Part shown: piece by piece, positions 7,382 through 24,974 of the stretch
Layout: every line of letters begins with the position of its first letter
How positions within the stretch are numbered: position 1 is the first letter of the stretch
Assembly: GCF_947504105.1 (NCBI RefSeq)
Contig: NZ_CANNGP010000008.1
Span: forward strand, 62,001 to 126,000
Source of the DNA: an uncultured Tateyamaria sp.
GTDB lineage: Bacteria > Pseudomonadota > Alphaproteobacteria > Rhodobacterales > Rhodobacteraceae
Length of the DNA stretch: 64,000 nt
Direction of reading: 5' to 3'
Translations under genes and position numbers: made by a program
Notes under the pieces: generated by a model
What the model saw: the letters and a program-made list of their open reading frames with translations, nothing else
What the model was told of the DNA's origin: nothing
Database searches by the model: none

Positions 7382-8383
7382 TTAGGTCAGCCTGGCGACA
7401 GACCCACGCTGGATAATCCGCGCAGGCAGCAATTGGCTTTGCAGCGGTGCGTTGGTTTCAAGGCATTCTACGATTTGAGCACCAACCGCCTCACCCATGC
7501 CAAATGCGGGCAGGTCTATAGTTGTTAGCGGGGGCACCACTTCGGCCGCCCAATCAAGGTTGTCAAACCCCATTACAGACACGTCTTGCGGGATACGCTT
7601 ACCTGCATCTGCGCAAGCAAAGTAAGCGCCCAGAGCCAGCACATCTGAAAAACATAAATACGCCGAATAGCCCCCTCCGTCCGCCAGCGTGCGACCAACG
7701 CACGCCTTGCCGCCCGCCACGCTGAGCGGTGTTTCAAAGAAATCCAACGTATCGAACAGGCCATGCAATGATCTGGCACCATCGCAGCGGGCCTGTGTCC
7801 TGTCACTTTCAACCAACGGACCATGCACGATCGCCACGTTCCTGTGCCCGTGGGAATGCAAATGCTTCACAGCTTCCTTTGCAAGCCCGGCATTGTCATA
7901 TCCCACCGTGGGACAGGTGCTGTCCGGATCCCAGACTGACGTATGGGCGTACGGCACCTGTCGCTTGGCCAACATGTTCAAAAGCGCTCCGGAATGCGTC
8001 TGACCGCTGAGTATGAACGCATCGGCGCCCATCCCCAGTAGTTTGCGAGCCGCCGCCAGTTCCTCGGCTTCATCTGAGTTGGAGATCGCAAGAACCAAGG
8101 AATAGCCACGTAGGCCAAGCGTCCGCTCAATGGCTGCGATGAACTTGGCAAAGACAGAATGCTCAATTGTCGGGATGATGGCCGCCACCACTTTGGATCT
8201 GCGTGTCGACAGGGCTCGGGCAGCCGGATTGGGCAAGTAATCAAGGCGAGCACAGGCATCAAGCACCCGCTTCCGGGTCTCTTCGCTGACCCTTGTACCG
8301 CCATTTACAACGCGCGAGATCGTGGCAGTCGACAGCCCCGTTTCCCGTGCCACATCCCGTATGCTTGCCCCAAGCCTGCTCAC
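7382..8383 (-). CDS. LacI-family transcriptional regulator
   Basis: The protein has 333 residues. The N-terminal LacI helix-turn-helix (ASIRDVARETGLSTATISRVV) is followed by a hinge (YLPNPAARALSTRRS) and a periplasmic-binding-like sensor domain to the C-terminus. The GTG start at 8381-8383 is preferred because GGAGGAGGG lies six bases upstream; a TTG start at 8431 would place the operator closer to the coding sequence but has no such site. It is divergent from the DUF1989-GcvT/ABC operon, with a perfect palindrome between them, so it most likely represses that operon and itself. The effector is presumably the imported solute or a product of it. Confidence 0.92.
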   Translation of the reverse strand: MSRLGASIRDVARETGLSTATISRVVNGGTRVSEETRKRVLDACARLDYLPNPAARALSTRRSKVVAAIIPTIEHSVFAKFIAAIERTLGLRGYSLVLAISNSDEAEELAAARKLLGMGADAFILSGQTHSGALLNMLAKRQVPYAHTSVWDPDSTCPTVGYDNAGLAKEAVKHLHSHGHRNVAIVHGPLVESDRTQARCDGARSLHGLFDTLDFFETPLSVAGGKACVGRTLADGGGYSAYLCFSDVLALGAYFACADAGKRIPQDVSVMGFDNLDWAAEVVPPLTTIDLPAFGMGEAVGAQIVECLETNAPLQSQLLPARIIQRGSVARLT

Positions 8384-8440
8384 GACAATCCCTCCTCCAC
8401 CCACCAGATGCCTGACCAAACCGATTCGCAAGTGTTCAAA

Positions 8441-8454
8441 TGTAACCGGTTACA
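8441..8454. promoter_or_regulatory. Predicted LacI-family operator
   Basis: TGTAACCGGTTACA is a perfect 14-bp palindrome with a central CG and the AACCGGTT core expected for LacI/PurR/GalR-type regulators. It lies 57 bp upstream of the lacI GTG and 45 bp upstream of the fusion-gene GTG, so one dimer could control both directions. No second copy was noticed in the window. Confidence 0.8.
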
Positions 8455-8499
8455 CAGCGCACCAATCAATTGACGCTTGAACCAAACGGGGAAAACCAC

Positions 8500-10824
8500 G
8501 TGTTGCGAAAAAGCGATACCTACACGCCTGTTCGTGCGCGGTATCAGGGTTTGAAAGATGCGACGACCCTGCGCCGCGACATCAGCTATGGCGAAATGGA
8601 ACGCGTGCGGGTGCGGGCGGGATCGGTTGTATCGATCACAAATGTCGACGGCGGCTGCGATGTTTGGCTGACGGCACTAGCGGATACCGCGCGCGACTTC
8701 GATCTCGCCGCATTCGCGCAAGTTGGCACCGCCGACCACGCGCTGCCAGATGACGGTTTCGACACAATGCAAATGCAGTCCATCGCGCGCAGCCGCGACA
8801 GCGACTTGAGCCGCGGACGCGGCCTGCGCATCTTCTCCGCATCGGATATGGCGGGCGACACCCACATCGCAAAGGTGACCAAGGATGTGGACTTGTTCTG
8901 CATTCTACCAATGTCCGAGAACTATCTGAGCGTTGGGGGTGGTGGGCAGGTCGCCCTGTCCATCCAACCACCCGCAGGCAAGATCATCGAAGCATCGCTG
9001 CCGGACCCTATGGGCCGGATCGTGGATGAATGGCGGGTCAGCCGCGGCACGGCGCATGCGTATACCCTGAAGAAAGGACAATTCGTCCAGATCATCGACG
9101 TGGAAGGGCAGCAATGCTCGGATTTCATGGCGATGCGCAGCGACGCGCTGGACCAAGGCACCGAGCGATACATCGACAGCGCCGTTTCCCGCACAATGGC
9201 GCGCGGCGCCTACCCCTTGCCTGGCCTGCACGACAAGTTCTTTGATCAGGACATGAAACCGTTGCTGGCGGTGCGCCAGGATACCGTCGGACGACACGAT
9301 ACCTTTGCGCTTGCCTGCACGGCGCGTGGCTATGAAGAACGCGGATTTCCCGGCCATATCAACTGTTCCGACAACATAAGCGGAGCATTTGACCCCTACG
9401 GCATTCAATCGCGGCGCGCCTGGCCTGCGATCAACTTCTTTTTCAACTCTTGGATCAACTGGCAAGACCATCACATCGCTACGGACGAGGCATGGTCGCG
9501 CCCGGGGGACTACGTGGCCATGCAGGCACTGACCGATCTGGTCTGCGTTTCCACTGCCTGTCCCGACGATGTGGATCCCATCAACGGCTGGAACCCAACG
9601 GATATTCATGTGCGTATTTACGAAGAAGGCAGCAATATCCAACACGCGGTGTCGTGGCGATCAAACCCCGAGGACGCCGCGCAGATGACGACCCATTCCG
9701 CCTTTCACCCGCGCATTTCCAAGCTGACAAGCAGCTACCACGTCGCCCGGCATCTCTGGGTGCCCACACAATACGATGCCACGGGGTCCATCGCCGAATA
9801 TTGGGCGTGCAAGGGCGCGGCGACGCTGCAGGACATGTCCGGGCTCAGGAAGTTCGACATCATCGGCCCAGATGCGGAAGAGCTGCTACAGCGCTGCATG
9901 ACTCGAAACGTGGCCAAGCTGTCGGCCCATCGCGGGCTCTATGCGCTGATGTGTGATCAACGGGGCTCCGTGCTGGATGACGGGACATTGTTTCGGCTGG
10001 AAGACACCGCATTTCGCTGGTGCTGTGGGTCGGACAACTCGGGTCTGCATTTGCGCGAACAGGCAGAGGCCCACGGGCTTAATGCTCGCGTCCTGAGCCA
10101 CGGCAGCAAGATGCAGAACCTTGCGCTGCAAGGACCAGGATCGTGGGACATCCTGCGCCAAATCGTCTTCACACAGCCGTCCCGACCGACGCTCGACAAC
10201 CTCAAATGGTTCGGCTTTACCGTCGCACGTTTGCACGACCGGGACGGGCCCATGTTCATGCTGTGCCGCACTGGTTTCACGGGCGAGCTGGGATACGAGA
10301 TTTTCTGTGACAGCGCTGACGCCGTTGCCATCTGGGATGCATTGATCAAGGCGGGCGCTCCGCATGGGCTGGTCCCCATGGGCAGCGACGCACTCGAAAT
10401 GCTGCGGATCGAGGCGGGTTTGATGATCTCGGGCGCTGAATTTGGTCCCGACACCGATGCGTTCGAATCCGGGTTGGGGTTCGCCGTTGATTTGGCAAAG
10501 CCCGACTTCATTGGACGGGCCGCGCTGGAACGCAACAGCACGGCACCGCGGCGCAAACTGGTGGGGCTGCACATGGCCGGCAACGAAGCTCCAAGCCATG
10601 GTGATGGCATCTTTGTCGGCCGTGAACAGGTTGGGGTGGTCACCAGTGCCTGCAACTCCCCCGCGCTTGGCCATGCAATCGGCATGGCACGTGTCGCCAT
10701 CGAAAACGCCACCGCCGGCACAGAACTGGAAGTGGGCAAACTGGACGGACATATGAAGCGCCTCGGCGCAACGCTTGTCGACCTGCCCTTCCTGGACCCG
10801 AAACGAGAGAAAGCACGCGCGTGA
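8500..10824 (+). CDS. DUF1989-GcvT fusion: putative aminomethyltransferase/demethylase
   Basis: The 774-residue protein has three parts. Residues about 1-150 look like a degenerate DUF1989 half (VRVRAGSVVSITNVDGG). Residues about 165-400 are a clear DUF1989 domain with VEGQQCSDF, PGHINCSDN and GWNPTDIH, where the Cys/His residues may bind metal. Residues about 420-770 are a GcvT-type folate domain with GSVLDDGT (the Asp pair expected near the folate amine) and RTGFTGELGYE. GcvT-like enzymes move methyl or methylene groups to tetrahydrofolate; DUF1989 proteins include subunits of carboxyguanidine deiminase. The GTG at 8500 has GGGGAA upstream; a TTG at 8470 is the alternative. The substrate is inferred to be the solute imported by the next three genes. 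The stop overlaps the ATPase start by 4 bp (GTGA). Confidence 0.85.
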   Translation: MLRKSDTYTPVRARYQGLKDATTLRRDISYGEMERVRVRAGSVVSITNVDGGCDVWLTALADTARDFDLAAFAQVGTADHALPDDGFDTMQMQSIARSRDSDLSRGRGLRIFSASDMAGDTHIAKVTKDVDLFCILPMSENYLSVGGGGQVALSIQPPAGKIIEASLPDPMGRIVDEWRVSRGTAHAYTLKKGQFVQIIDVEGQQCSDFMAMRSDALDQGTERYIDSAVSRTMARGAYPLPGLHDKFFDQDMKPLLAVRQDTVGRHDTFALACTARGYEERGFPGHINCSDNISGAFDPYGIQSRRAWPAINFFFNSWINWQDHHIATDEAWSRPGDYVAMQALTDLVCVSTACPDDVDPINGWNPTDIHVRIYEEGSNIQHAVSWRSNPEDAAQMTTHSAFHPRISKLTSSYHVARHLWVPTQYDATGSIAEYWACKGAATLQDMSGLRKFDIIGPDAEELLQRCMTRNVAKLSAHRGLYALMCDQRGSVLDDGTLFRLEDTAFRWCCGSDNSGLHLREQAEAHGLNARVLSHGSKMQNLALQGPGSWDILRQIVFTQPSRPTLDNLKWFGFTVARLHDRDGPMFMLCRTGFTGELGYEIFCDSADAVAIWDALIKAGAPHGLVPMGSDALEMLRIEAGLMISGAEFGPDTDAFESGLGFAVDLAKPDFIGRAALERNSTAPRRKLVGLHMAGNEAPSHGDGIFVGREQVGVVTSACNSPALGHAIGMARVAIENATAGTELEVGKLDGHMKRLGATLVDLPFLDPKREKARA

Positions 10825-11879
10825 CTGAAAACACAGAAGAAGGGGTGGTCGTCACCCGCAACGTCTGGAAAATCTTTGGCGATCGTGCCGGCGAGGCCAT
10901 GGAAACCGTCCGCCGGGACAACCTGTCCAAGGCCGAAGTGCTGGAGCAGTTCGGCGCGGTTGTGGGGGTCAAGGATGTCTCCATATCGGTCGAAGAAGGC
11001 GAGATTTTCTGCATCATGGGACTGTCGGGATCGGGCAAATCCACCCTCGTGCGACACATCAACCGGCTGATCGAACCCACAGGGGGCGATATCCTGATCA
11101 ACGGCGCGAATGTCGGCAAGCTGAACGCCGAAGAGCTGCGGGCCATGCGCGCCGACAAGATCGGCATGGTGTTCCAGAACATGGCATTGCTACCGCACCG
11201 CACGGTACGCGACAACGTCGCCTTCTCTCTGGAGCTGCGCAATATCGATGCCTACACACGGGCACAGGTGGCCGACCGGGTGATCGACCTCGTCAGCCTG
11301 CAAGGCTACGGCGACAGATTCCCCAACGAATTGTCGGGCGGAATGCAGCAACGCGTGGGCCTCGCCCGCGCCATGGCCGCAGACCCGGACATCCTGCTGA
11401 TGGACGAACCATTTTCCGCCCTCGACCCGCTGATCCGGCGCGGCTTGCAGGACGAATTCCTTGAACTGTCGAAGACGATGAAAAAAACGACGCTCTTCAT
11501 CACACACGATCTGGACGAGGCGATCCGTATGGGCAGCCGCATCGCCATCATGAAGGACGGAGAGATCGTGCAGACCGGTACACCCGAGGACATCGTGACC
11601 AACCCGGCCGACGCCTATGTGGCCGACTTTGTGGCCGGGATTTCCAAGCTCAAGCTGCTCTACGCCCACACGGTAATGGAGCCGCTCGAAGCCTACGAGG
11701 CGCGGCGCGGCGCCGTGAAACAGGCTGACGCGCCGGTGGCGCAACCCGATGACGACCTCGATAAGCTGATCGCGCTTAGCGTGGACCAGGATCATCCGAT
11801 CCTGATCAAGGACGACGGCAACGTCGTGGGCGTCGTGTCCAAAGATGCAATCCTGCACGGCGTTCAGGGGGAGGCATAA
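10821..11879 (+). CDS. ProV-like quaternary-amine ABC transporter ATPase
   Basis: The protein has 352 residues with Walker A GLSGSGKST, Q-loop FQNMALLPHRT, signature LSGGMQQR and Walker B ILLMDEPFSALD. As in ProV/OpuAA, about 50 residues precede the core (KIFGDRAGEAM), and a CBS-like half domain closes the protein (HPILIKDDGNVVGVVSKD), which in this family can sense osmotic state. It starts with GTG inside the preceding stop codon, so translation is coupled to the demethylase. It energises uptake through the adjacent permease. Confidence 0.93.
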   Translation: MTENTEEGVVVTRNVWKIFGDRAGEAMETVRRDNLSKAEVLEQFGAVVGVKDVSISVEEGEIFCIMGLSGSGKSTLVRHINRLIEPTGGDILINGANVGKLNAEELRAMRADKIGMVFQNMALLPHRTVRDNVAFSLELRNIDAYTRAQVADRVIDLVSLQGYGDRFPNELSGGMQQRVGLARAMAADPDILLMDEPFSALDPLIRRGLQDEFLELSKTMKKTTLFITHDLDEAIRMGSRIAIMKDGEIVQTGTPEDIVTNPADAYVADFVAGISKLKLLYAHTVMEPLEAYEARRGAVKQADAPVAQPDDDLDKLIALSVDQDHPILIKDDGNVVGVVSKDAILHGVQGEA

Positions 11880-11880
11880 G

Positions 11881-13467
11881 ATGACCGACATCACACCCGA
11901 TGAGTTCGGCGGCGCGGCGGCGGCAGCCAATGACGAAACCAAACCCTTTGCCGATTTTGCTGATAAGTCAGGCGGCTACTTCGCCCAGACGTTCCTGGCG
12001 ATCCAAAAGGCCAAACTGCCCACCAGCCACATCAACTGGATGGCGGTCATCGCAGGCTTTCCGTGGGCCGCGATACGCGCGAACAAGGTGTTGTTCTGGA
12101 TCGGATTCCTGATCGATCTGGTGGCTGCAGTGTACCTGATGCAGGTCTGGAAATTCTCGCGTGCCGCGGAACAGGCTGTGATCGACGGCAAGGACTTCCT
12201 TGTGGTGCGTTACGAGGATTGGACGATGTCCAGCCTGTGGGCCGCCGTGATCATCTTCATCCTCGGCCGACTTGTGTTCGGCTGGTTGGCTGACCGTATC
12301 TACTTCCGACAATACAATGTCTGGCGCGTGGACCACAACAAACCGTCAGGTTGGGACATGAAACGGCTGGTCTGGGCGGCGGTTATCGTTGCCATGATTG
12401 CCCCGCTGATGCTCTACCGTGCCTCGCAATTCCCACCCGAGGAACGCACCTGCATCAAGCAAACGCGTGCACTGGCCGAAGGAGAAGAAGTCGCGTTCAA
12501 GGACCAGTTCGACTGCCTCGTGATTGGTGAATTCCCCACGATCGTCTGGCTCAACCGGCGCGACGAGGTGACCTATCCACGCGACGATGATGGCAACCGT
12601 TTTGTCCGGCGCGAGGCTCCGCGTGAAGGCTTGCCCCCGGTCAACCTGAACAAGTACACCGCCCAACTAATCGATGACGGGATCGGCTACCTGACCGCCT
12701 TCTACGGCTTCTTCTTCGACGGGATCACCACCTTCCTTCGATCGATGCTGTCGGCCATCACGGCGGTTTTTGTCGGCACCCCGTGGATCATTGCGATGGG
12801 GGCAATTCTGGCAATCAGTTACTCCATGGCAGGGGCCCGAATAACCATATTCGTCGCCGCGTCCCTGGGGTATCTCGCCCTCTTTGGTTTCTGGCAGACG
12901 GCGATGGACACCATGAGCCTGGTGGTTGCCGCGTCGATCATCTGTGTGGTGTTCGGATTACCCTTGGGCATCTGGGTGGGCAAATCCACCAGGGGACAGG
13001 CGATCATCACACCAATCCTGGATATCATGCAGACGATCCCGTCCTTCGTGTATCTACTGCCTGCCGTCGCCTTCTTCTCGATTGGTAAACCGCCAGGCAT
13101 CCTTGCCACGGTGATCTTTGCGATGCCACCCATGGTGCGCCTAACTGCGCTGGGGATCAGGCACGTGCCCGAGAACACCAAGGAAGCGGCACTCGCGTTT
13201 GGTGCAAACCCGCGGCAGTTGCTGATGAAGGTGGAACTGCCACAGGCGCTGCCCTCCATCATGGCCGGGGTGAACCAGGTCGTGATGATGGCGCTTTCCA
13301 TGGTCGTGGTTGCGGCACTGATCGGCGCGGGTGGCATGGGCTTCATTGTGACCGAAGCCCTCGCAAACACCCGAACAGGTGCAGGCATTCTGGCCGGGAT
13401 CGGCATCGCGCTTCTGGCGATGATGATCGACCGCGTCGTTCAGAGAGCCAACACAATGAAAAACTAA
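11881..13467 (+). CDS. ProW-like ABC transporter permease with long N-terminal extension
   Basis: The protein has 528 residues, against roughly 280-350 for ordinary ProW. The first 270 or so residues contain several extra membrane helices and a soluble stretch with two cysteines (EERTCIK, FDCLVIGEF). The C-terminal half is a standard BPD permease with the EAA loop (KEAALAFGANPRQLLMKVELPQ). The ATG at 11881 follows the ATPase stop by one base and begins MTDITPDEFGG. The extension is probably a variant scaffold around the binding-protein docking face; its role is unknown. Confidence 0.9.
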   Translation: MTDITPDEFGGAAAAANDETKPFADFADKSGGYFAQTFLAIQKAKLPTSHINWMAVIAGFPWAAIRANKVLFWIGFLIDLVAAVYLMQVWKFSRAAEQAVIDGKDFLVVRYEDWTMSSLWAAVIIFILGRLVFGWLADRIYFRQYNVWRVDHNKPSGWDMKRLVWAAVIVAMIAPLMLYRASQFPPEERTCIKQTRALAEGEEVAFKDQFDCLVIGEFPTIVWLNRRDEVTYPRDDDGNRFVRREAPREGLPPVNLNKYTAQLIDDGIGYLTAFYGFFFDGITTFLRSMLSAITAVFVGTPWIIAMGAILAISYSMAGARITIFVAASLGYLALFGFWQTAMDTMSLVVAASIICVVFGLPLGIWVGKSTRGQAIITPILDIMQTIPSFVYLLPAVAFFSIGKPPGILATVIFAMPPMVRLTALGIRHVPENTKEAALAFGANPRQLLMKVELPQALPSIMAGVNQVVMMALSMVVVAALIGAGGMGFIVTEALANTRTGAGILAGIGIALLAMMIDRVVQRANTMKN

Positions 13468-13497
13468 CCAAGAATGAGTTCAAAAAGGGAGACACAA

Positions 13498-14448
13498 ATG
13501 AAACTCATGACAACGCTCACCGCTGCAGGTGCACTTTCAATTGCCGCCGTCAGCGCGTCCGCGCAGGAGAAGGTGGCGATCTCGGACCTCAACTGGACCG
13601 GTGCGAAAGCCATCGCGCATGTCATCAAGACCGTGATCGAAGGGCCGCTGAACTCCGAAGCAGAAATCGTCGAGGGTCTGTCCGACCAGGCCATCATCGG
13701 TGCGGGCATGGACAAGGGCGACGGCTCGGCCGACGTCTGGACGGATATGTGGATGCCGAACCAGCAGGGTCCATGGGACAAATACATCGAAGACGCGGGC
13801 ACAGTGGCGCACAACCAGCCCTATGCCGGCACCCAGCAGATGTATGTGCCTGCCTACATGTCCGATCAAATCAGCTCGTTCGAGGATCTGAAAGATCCAG
13901 CCGTGGCCGCAATGTTTGACAAAGACGGCAACGGCAAAGGCGAATACTGGGCCGGTGACGCGTCGTGGAAATCCACGAAAATCTGGCAGGTCAAGATGAA
14001 GTCCTATGGCCTGACCGAACTATGGGAACCCGAGATCATTTCGGACGCGACCTTCAAGGCTCAACTGAAATCGTCCTACGGCAACCAGAAGCCGATCCTG
14101 TTCTACTACTGGACACCAGAATGGATCCACGCCGCCTATGACATCGCGCCCTTGGCCGAACCCGAGCACAGCGAAGGCTGCATGAACCTGCAACTGGATG
14201 GCGAAGACTGGCTGGAAGTGTCCGAAGCGGGCTGCAAGACTCCGGATGCATCGATCTTCGTCAGCTACTCCAAGTCATTGGAAGAACGGAACCCGCCTGC
14301 GGCCAAGTTCCTGAGCCAGATTCAACTGGACCCTGCGGTCGTGAACGGCTGGATCCTGAAAATCGGTCGTGACGAAATGGACCCGCAGGACGTCGCCGAA
14401 GAATGGGTGGCAGAAAACATGGACATCGTGAACAGCTGGATCAACTAA
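13498..14448 (+). CDS. Glycine betaine/proline-type substrate-binding protein (ProX/OpuAC family)
   Basis: The protein has 316 residues with a Sec signal peptide of about 20 residues ending ASAQ. The mature protein is rich in Trp/Tyr (DLNWTG, WTDMWMPNQQGPW, YWTPEW), as expected for a cation-pi cage that binds quaternary ammonium or sulfonium groups. The ATG at 13498 has AAGGGAG upstream. It is the last gene of the operon and lies just before an intrinsic terminator. The actual ligand (glycine betaine, carnitine, DMSP, a methylated guanidino compound or another solute) cannot be read from sequence. Confidence 0.92.
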   Translation: MKLMTTLTAAGALSIAAVSASAQEKVAISDLNWTGAKAIAHVIKTVIEGPLNSEAEIVEGLSDQAIIGAGMDKGDGSADVWTDMWMPNQQGPWDKYIEDAGTVAHNQPYAGTQQMYVPAYMSDQISSFEDLKDPAVAAMFDKDGNGKGEYWAGDASWKSTKIWQVKMKSYGLTELWEPEIISDATFKAQLKSSYGNQKPILFYYWTPEWIHAAYDIAPLAEPEHSEGCMNLQLDGEDWLEVSEAGCKTPDASIFVSYSKSLEERNPPAAKFLSQIQLDPAVVNGWILKIGRDEMDPQDVAEEWVAENMDIVNSWIN

Positions 14449-14468
14449 GCTGCGCACTGTGAAAAAGA

Positions 14469-14500
14469 CCCGGCGCGAGTGCACTTCGCGCCGGGTTTTT
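14469..14500 (+). terminator. Intrinsic terminator of the DUF1989-GcvT/ABC operon
   Basis: A perfect 10-bp GC stem CCCGGCGCGA / TCGCGCCGGG with a 7-base loop is followed by TTTTT, 20 bp after the binding-protein stop. Confidence 0.93.
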
Positions 14501-14637
14501 CTTTGCCCAAGGGCGGGCCAATTTGACCCCTTGCTGCGACGCAAACTATTCTTCAGACCTTGATCCAAAGTGACAGCCGAATCCAAATCTCATTCGGCCA
14601 AACACCTCTTATTCATTGCTTTGAAAAGGGTCTTTGC

Positions 14638-14943
14638 GTGAGCGAACAAGTGTCAAACCGTCGACCAATCCGTCATGTCGTCTTGTTTAGCAGCAAGCAC
14701 CCGGACAACATCGAACCGATGATCAATGGCCTGTCAATGCTGGCCAAAATACCGACTGTCAGCCATTTCGAAGTGTCCCGGAACCGGAATGAGGACCACT
14801 ACTCCAACGAAGTTGACGTTATTGTATATGCAGAATTTGAGGATGCCGCCGCGCTGGAGGCCTACCGCGCTCATCCGATCTACCAAAAATGCATCGAGGT
14901 AGTCAGACCTCTTCGAGAACTGCGCCTCGCCGCGGACTTTTGA
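14638..14943 (+). CDS. Dabb (stress-responsive A/B barrel) domain protein
   Basis: The 101-residue protein opens VSEQVSNRRPIRHVVLFSS. The early IRHVVLF strand, the central HFEVSRNRN and the C-terminal FEDAAALEAYRAHPIYQK fit the Dabb ferredoxin-like fold, which usually forms dimeric barrels that bind small or hydrophobic ligands. The GTG at 14638 (AAGGGT upstream) gives the usual length; the frame is open from 14560. The TGA is directly followed by the pabB ATG, so the two are translated together. A functional link to folate or aminobenzoate synthesis is only inferred. Confidence 0.72.
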   Translation: MSEQVSNRRPIRHVVLFSSKHPDNIEPMINGLSMLAKIPTVSHFEVSRNRNEDHYSNEVDVIVYAEFEDAAALEAYRAHPIYQKCIEVVRPLRELRLAADF

Positions 14944-24682: not shown

Positions 24683-24974
24683 ACTTAAGTCACCTTTCAG
24701 CGTTTCTCTGGACACTGCAATGCCGTCGGGCTCCGGCACGCTGCACCCGTGAGACGATGGGTTTCAGGTCAATTCATGGCCGCCGTCCCACCGGCAGCCT
24801 CCCGACCTTGCAAACCGCATCTTGGAAAAGACTTTTCAGGAAAGCCCTTACCAAGACGGGTCGGGCCGGACGCGCGATATGCGCATCCAGCCCATGATTT
24901 TCAAGTGGGGGTGTGGAATTCGGCAAGAATTCCCGTCGCCCTTGATACACAAAGGCCCCCCGTCCCTAAAGGAC
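24683..24974 (-). other. rplL-rpoB intergenic region
   Basis: This 292-bp spacer between rplL and rpoB has no credible ORF. Just after the rplL stop the minus strand can form a small hairpin (AGTCC, TTTA, GGGAC) followed by a G-run rather than a T-run. In enterobacteria the equivalent gap carries an attenuator and an RNase III site, so this may be a partial terminator or processing region. Confidence 0.4.

Follow-up and report, generated by a model that had tools for sequence, protein, structure and literature searches.

A candidate import-and-demethylation operon built on a second clade of trimethylamine N-oxide demethylase homologues

Trimethylamine N-oxide (TMAO) is the fish-odour precursor, and the demethylation of an N-oxide is redox-neutral. 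GcvT domains pass one-carbon units onto tetrahydrofolate. According to PMC12560246, TMAO demethylase (Tdm) begins with a DUF1989-like domain, followed by the DUF1989 domain proper and a GcvT domain; its DUF1989 domain carries the zinc cysteines C263, C279 and C343, and H276, D198 and D346 are discussed at the metal site. For the binding protein TmoX, excerpts of PMC8918994 give a TMAO pocket formed by W55, W102, F106, E131, W177, F220 and W222, with Glu131 as the hydrogen-bond partner of the N-oxide, and place Tdm and the ProVWX-like importer TmoXWV in one pathway. We analysed a 64,000-nucleotide stretch of DNA from an uncultured Tateyamaria sp. (the window), in which a first-pass annotation had regarded the combination of a DUF1989 domain, a GcvT domain and a ProVWX-type importer as unprecedented. 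The fusion has the known Tdm architecture and the pairing of Tdm with TmoXWV is also known, so this three-part combination has precedents.

Operon layout and the encoded enzyme

The five genes were found in the ORF list as earlier placed, with the LacI gene on the minus strand and four packed genes on the plus strand, followed by a terminator. The ORFs, domains and terminator stem (14468-14496) bore out this description of a packed operon with a divergent LacI gene.

7382..8431, minus strand: LacI-family repressor, divergent (Pfam LacI and Peripla_BP_3; called start TTG 8431, shorter start possible)
8441..8454, no strand: perfect palindrome TGTAACCGGTTACA, putative operator between the LacI and enzyme genes
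8500..10824, plus strand: clade-B TMAO-demethylase homologue, here labelled 'TdmB' (774 aa from GTG 8500; alternative start TTG 8470)
9037..9543, plus strand: DUF1989 domain, holding the metal site (Pfam PF09347, residues 190-358 of the 784-aa reading)
9748..10797, plus strand: GcvT folate-binding domain and C-terminal barrel (PF01571, residues 427-672; PF08669, residues 695-776)
Window enzyme, 784-aa reading: metal-site residues Asp208, Cys273, His286, Cys289, Cys354 and Asp357, from alignment
10821..11879, plus strand: ProV/ChoV-type ABC ATPase (TIGR01186 proV subfamily, 355.8 bits, above the cut-off of 326.6)
11881..13467, plus strand: ProW/ChoW-type permease with a long N-terminal extension (likely start ATG 11881; TIGR03416, 268.6 bits, below the cut-off of 363)
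13498..14448, plus strand: OpuAC/ProX-type binding protein, not TmoX (likely start ATG 13498; PF04069, 143.5 bits)
14468..14496, no strand: intrinsic terminator stem of 11 pairs, 9 of them GC (T runs on both sides; stem listed on the minus strand)

The enzyme and ATPase genes overlapped by GTGA (10821-10824), and gaps of 1 bp and 30 bp separated the ATPase from the permease and the permease from the binding protein. LacI and Peripla_BP, DUF1989, GCV_T and GCV_T_C, ABC_tran, BPD_transp_1 and OpuAC all scored above their Pfam gathering scores. GTG 8500 is the likelier enzyme start than TTG 8470 because a purine-rich run, ggggaaaa, lies just upstream of it. An Rfam scan at the gathering threshold found no riboswitch near the module. 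Directly past the terminator, positions 14560-14943 encode a small Dabb-domain protein (stress-responsive A/B barrel) that had no relative among the loci compared, and a Rhodo-rpoB leader RNA (RF03074) was found at 24715-24808 on the minus strand.

The best NCBIfam model for the enzyme was NF053776 (trimethylamine N-oxide demethylase), which covered residues 32-784 with 1064.6 bits but did not reach its cut-off of 1100. The nearest solved relative was the Tdm of Methylocella silvestris (PDB 9q59), with an E value of about 4e-190 and a near full-length alignment, and the Tdm build of DUF1989, GcvT and GcvT C-terminal barrel extended over nearly the full length of the window enzyme. We aligned 26 sequences of the clade of canonical Tdm (clade A) and 51 of the clade of the window enzyme (clade B), after the removal of two duplicate rows. 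In Tdm numbering, for which an offset of 22 was deduced from residue spacing (the published A344 is Pro in the chain), C263, H276, C279 and C343 were invariant in all 26 clade-A and all 51 clade-B rows. D198 was kept in 25/26 and 50/51 rows and D346 in 25/26 and 51/51, respectively, and the DDG motif of the GcvT domain was invariant in both clades. Since domains and ligands were kept in the alignment, the DUF1989-GcvT fusion corresponds to the known Tdm build. The metal site was flanked by clade-specific changes, namely Y267G, Y273F, N284S, A350I and F369I. By these comparisons the window enzyme is of Tdm-type build with predicted intact metal ligands, yet it is not a canonical Tdm. Carboxyguanidine and urea-carboxylase-associated readings were ruled out, as those DUF1989 models scored far below their cut-offs, and so was identity with DmdA, whose model reached 134.9 bits against a cut-off of 410.

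Canonical Tdm and its sister clade

We built two trees, one of 79 proteins (clade A 26, clade B 53) and one of 71 (clade A 22, clade B 49). Both came from short tree searches, had no bootstrap and were midpoint-rooted, and their rows derive from searches that used the window protein as seed. In both trees a long stem with an SH-aLRT value of 100 separated clade A, which holds canonical Tdm and the M. silvestris enzyme, from clade B, so that the window enzyme fell in a sister clade and did not group with M. silvestris Tdm. Nine clade-B members scored 1023.6-1094 bits with NF053776 and three clade-A members 1217-1270.3 bits, and the curated cut-off of 1100 therefore separates the clades among these twelve. 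Clade-B hosts included Rhodobacterales, Rhizobiaceae, Nitratireductor, Roseibium, Pelagibius, a Geminicoccaceae bin, Marinomonas, Marinobacterium, Granulosicoccus, an Olavius symbiont, one Ideonella and a Paracoccus plasmid. The plasmid clade-B protein bears the RefSeq product name 'aminomethyltransferase family protein', and a Ponticoccus match outside the trees, 49% identical to the window protein, is named Tdm in RefSeq. Tdm homologues were frequent on plasmids: of 139 plasmid records with a match, 95 were from Rhizobium and 20 from Acinetobacter. Only one plasmid homologue from each of Rhizobium and Aquabacterium was placed in a tree, and both belonged to clade A.

What is new, as far as sequences can tell, is a sister clade of TMAO demethylase that has its own predicted regulator and binding protein and is not called Tdm in the RefSeq annotation examined. 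No description of a second Tdm clade or of such a LacI module was found in the parts of the open literature searched, including the excerpts available from PMC12560246, PMC13390433, PMC8918994, PMC5520151 and PMC7574528.

The same genome (G000) carries a canonical trimethylamine/TMAO pathway, including TmoX, on another contig (C5:108812-132058). Its full-length Tdm (L010 3801-6200), to which the window enzyme was 44% identical, reached 1227.3 bits with NF053776, above the cut-off. The region also encodes tmm (834.6 bits; cut-off 675), GmaS (TIGR03105, 662; cut-off 469.6), a FolD-like gene that scored under the FolD equivalog cut-offs and an HODM-type gene (PF11927), which we take as a Dmm subunit; 'Mgs-like' labels were given there from gene look and order. 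The TmoX gene (C5:108812-109639) encodes a protein that by eye is near-identical to the solved R. pomeroyi protein. The first-pass annotation was right that the operon holds no other demethylase, as none was present among its ORFs. Within the cell this step does not stand alone, since C5 encodes a methylamine pathway. With Tdm and TmoX present on C5, a further unit for TMAO would be redundant in this genome.

Importer, repressor and genomic context

The binding protein of the window was only 21% identical to TmoX of the same genome. It is thus not the TmoX orthologue, as a far closer TmoX is encoded on C5, and its best single-sequence PDB match was E. coli ProX. A profile search that ranked TmoX (4xz6) first was discarded because three TmoX-like rows in the alignment force that rank. 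The four-tryptophan box was present, with W33, W85, W157 and W205 for W55, W102, W177 and W222 of TmoX, and Gln113 occupied the position of Glu131. Glu131 was found in 11/11 TmoX-type proteins as opposed to 0/33 clade-B binding proteins, which have Gln (17), Ser (7), Ala (5) or Thr (4) there. W55, W102 and W177 were kept in all 33, and W222 was Trp in 20 and Tyr in 13. Furthermore, F220 was replaced by Tyr in 33/33, and Gln, Arg or Trp occupied the Phe106 position. Judged by these positions, the clade-B binding proteins have the methylated-nitrogen box and lack the reported TMAO-oxygen contact. The binding proteins also sorted by clade: those of clade-B loci were 31-96% identical to the window protein, whereas those of nine clade-A loci and C5 were TmoX-like.

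The LacI protein combines a LacI helix-turn-helix with a periplasmic-binding effector domain and has a CG-centred palindrome nearby, and is therefore predicted to be a repressor. The palindrome TGTAACCGGTTACA at 8441-8454, which the first-pass annotation had not listed, was the only match with at most two mismatches in the window (0.08 expected), and the 4.76-Mb assembly had no other site within one mismatch of it. The reversed pattern gave two matches per strand, so that the point is the absence of a second site, not the improbability of one. This absence suggests that the repressor probably has a single target in the genome, and co-regulation of the C5 methylamine cluster through a TGTAACCGGTTACA operator was ruled out at the same threshold. 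We scanned 53 clade-B loci over a region that reached 200 bases upstream and 100 bases downstream of the predicted start. A divergent LacI gene was flagged at 29 of them, and a AACCGGTT-type palindrome occurred at 16 of these 29 versus 2 of the 24 loci with no divergent LacI. The 13 remaining LacI loci, mostly outside the window's subclade, had no AACCGGTT-type site; two of the scanned loci (L109 and L019) are identical in sequence, and wrongly placed starts may conceal sites.

At least one transporter gene followed the enzyme gene in 35 of 54 clade-B gene maps, duplicates and cut contigs included, indicating that the arrangement in the window is not due to chance. The genes in these maps were called by a codon-score scheme, as a longest-ORF scheme gave antisense false genes. 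The importer order in complete maps was V-W-X or X-V-W, and the maps with no transporter after the enzyme included contig ends, TRAP loci and loci with neither. TRAP transporters mostly take up carboxylates. At L023, L024 and L057, TRAP genes shared the strand of the clade-B gene and were accompanied by a LysR gene; at L027 and L040 they were divergent. The families come from scans of L023 and L027, and the other loci were assigned through common gene clusters. At L023 (6610-12292), as at L024 and L057, the clade-B gene lies behind LysR and TRAP (DctPQM) genes in place of an ABC importer. Judged by identity, all three genomes have two clade-B copies, and one of them has two clade-A copies in addition.

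Among the neighbours identified in the gene maps, which are a minority, no second conserved catabolic partner of clade B was seen. MTTB (L098), MLE (L098, L054), amidase (L061, L054), FAD-GcvT/ETF (L028), ThiC (L101) and BKACE (L102) each occurred in at most a few loci. In L036 (Olavius Gamma3), the clade-B gene forms a single cluster with a folD-like gene on one side and Mgs-like and gmaS genes on the other; this genome lacks tmm and has a clade-A copy at another site. In Marinomonas sargassi (L028:3402-9583), the clade-B enzyme gene is preceded on its strand by genes for ETF-alpha, a formyl-transferase, an FAD/GcvT dehydrogenase, a FolD-like protein and a cupin-HTH regulator, possibly a dimethylamine-oxidising route. 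In one genome (G073, L098:2164-4883), the importer genes are followed on their strand by a gene of the trimethylamine-methyltransferase (MTTB) family and one of the mandelate-racemase family, a hint of betaine metabolism beside that one clade-B module.

Co-occurrence was analysed in a family sample of 248 genomes, 67 of which had a Tdm homologue at 1e-100 and 16 of which had clade B (at least 53% identity to the window protein). With 28 genomes of named loci these gave a clade-B test set of 44, of which 22 also had clade A, called in the named genomes at 53% identity or more to the canonical Tdm of the window genome. The controls were 46 of 51 A-only genomes (four less than 90% complete were omitted, as was G155, whose match was cut by a contig end) and 18 of the 181 genomes of the same family with neither clade. 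As the genomes are mutually related, Fisher values are descriptive only. The first survey had scored four candidates per genome, and we therefore repeated the search with canonical Tdm and scored all candidates: 9/9 family B-only genomes had one clade-B copy as their sole homologue and 18/18 neither genomes had none. One B-only genome (G223) is 89% complete; completeness figures cover the family genomes only.

The tmm gene scored above cut-off in 0/22 B-only genomes, 19/22 with both clades, 42/46 A-only and 0/18 with neither. Its absence from B-only genomes fits TMAO import rather than synthesis from trimethylamine (TMA), and on these gene counts clade B is not tied to TMAO production from TMA. 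GmaS was above cut-off in 41/46 A-only, 10/22 B-only and 4/18 neither genomes. Among the B-only genomes it was present in 6/7 of subclade B1, to which the window belongs, and in 4/15 of the rest; within the window's family it was found in 2/9, the background rate of the neither genomes. The methylamine dehydrogenase small subunit occurred in 1/22 B-only genomes and in 0/12 of those lacking GmaS. The HODM-type Dmm subunit was found in 8/44 clade-B genomes, every one of them a carrier of clade A too; it did not separate the clades cleanly, as 14 others that carry clade A lack it. In B1 the enzyme product thus plausibly feeds the methylamine pathway. In much of the remaining clade B, gene content indicates that the product does not enter either of the two MMA routes examined (GmaS and Mau).

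Candidate substrates and comparison with known systems

We consider it probable, on balance, that the module is a self-contained unit for exogenous TMAO built on the second Tdm clade. LacI bound at its single operator would keep the operon off until the effector, presumably TMAO or its product, arrives and opens it. The ABC importer, an aromatic-box binding protein with a ProV/ProW-like ATPase and permease, would take the solute up. The DUF1989 metal site would split TMAO, or a near relative, into a demethylated amine (dimethylamine from TMAO) and formaldehyde, and the GcvT domain would load the released formaldehyde onto tetrahydrofolate. In the window genome, dimethylamine would continue into the Dmm/GmaS route on C5. 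We infer the substrate, effector, activity and repression of the module from sequence. The function class in the first-pass annotation, an import-and-demethylate unit, agrees with this, while nothing in the analysis supports its guanidine, creatine, trigonelline and homarine candidates.

The case for TMAO draws on the Tdm architecture with its solved homologue, the invariant metal ligands, the DDG motif and the lack of tmm in B-only genomes. It is supported by the presence of GmaS in 6/7 B1 B-only genomes compared to 4/18 neither genomes, and by the binding proteins, which keep three tryptophans of the TMAO box in 33/33 and Trp or Tyr as the fourth. The clade-B gene in the gmaS cluster of L036 adds to this, although the clade-A copy elsewhere in that genome weakens the point. 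The case is weakened by the missing Glu131 (0/33), the 12/22 B-only genomes that have neither GmaS nor Mau, the mere background rate of GmaS in B-only genomes of the window's family (2/9), the redundancy with the C5 system, the changed residues beside the metal site, the TRAP partners at some loci and the score under the curated cut-off.

Several of these features would be expected if clade B were a separate family, equipped with an importer and a repressor of its own, that acts on a different methylated N-oxide or on a carboxylated methylammonium solute; we regard this reading as rather unlikely. The demethylated product would then join general metabolism and GmaS would be unneeded, and the family would have spread through alpha- and gammaproteobacteria, often without the trimethylamine pathway. 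The pocket points in this direction, as Glu131 is absent in 33/33 and the Phe106 position is Gln, Arg or Trp, and so do the B-only genomes, which never have tmm and in 12 of 22 cases lack GmaS and Mau. The TRAP partners at five loci, the canonical TMAO system already present in the window genome and, at single loci, the MTTB and mandelate-racemase-family genes downstream (L098) and the ETF/FAD-GcvT/FolD-like genes upstream (L028) are also consistent with another solute. However, the metal shell is largely unchanged, the L036 gene sits in a GmaS cluster, GmaS is present in most B1-only genomes, and the maps show no regular link between clade B and a second catabolic gene. Furthermore, redox-neutral demethylation requires an N-oxide, and TMAO is the abundant one. 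As for the undescribed osmolyte envisaged earlier, the pocket and the co-occurrence pattern do differ from those of canonical TMAO systems, but we saw no positive sign of such a compound.

It is improbable that TMAO serves only as a C1 and energy source, with one methyl taken and dimethylamine (DMA) excreted, so that the module would mark DMA producers. DMA excretion would make the missing GmaS in many clade-B genomes expected, and it matches the B-only genomes without GmaS and Mau and the confinement of the HODM-type Dmm subunit to 8/44 clade-B genomes, each of which has clade A as well; excerpts of PMC5520151 argue that marine bacteria face a DMA bottleneck. The window genome, however, has an HODM-type Dmm gene and GmaS, making excretion unnecessary there, and this is more a variant of TMAO use than a true rival. 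A DmdA-like direct transfer, in which the GcvT domain moves a methyl group from a betaine or sulfonium to tetrahydrofolate and the DUF1989 site is structural, would suit the GcvT domain and the betaine-type importer but is very improbable, given the DUF1989 cysteines and His invariant in 51/51 clade-B rows, the best relatives being Tdm and the low DmdA score.

Surveys of tdm by homology, or those expecting an adjacent tmm, would merge or miss clade B. If clade B acts on TMAO, a group of mostly marine bacteria that lack TMA monooxygenase would be TMAO users, and the hosts without GmaS could be dimethylamine sources. Otherwise, clade B would represent a new osmolyte pathway.

Compared with Tdm (NF053776, 9q59 and the C5 copy), the window enzyme shares the DUF1989 and GcvT domains, the metal ligands and a near full-length alignment. 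However, it differs in its 44% identity to the C5 copy, its separate clade, its score under the curated cut-off and the clade-specific residues that flank its metal site, and its gene does not adjoin tmm or gmaS. The importer belongs to the same OpuAC/ProV/ProW superfamily as TmoXWV and shares the four-tryptophan box, whereas its binding protein is 21% identical to the TmoX of the genome and lacks Glu131. The betaine and choline importers ProVWX and ChoXWV are resembled by the window ATPase, which scored above the proV cut-off, and by the binding protein, whose PDB match was ProX; in contrast, the binding protein and the permease scored under the equivalog cut-offs, and a demethylase lies in the same operon. 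The DMSP demethylase DmdA shares the GcvT domain, but its model spans only the GcvT part of the window enzyme (residues 421-763), far under the cut-off.
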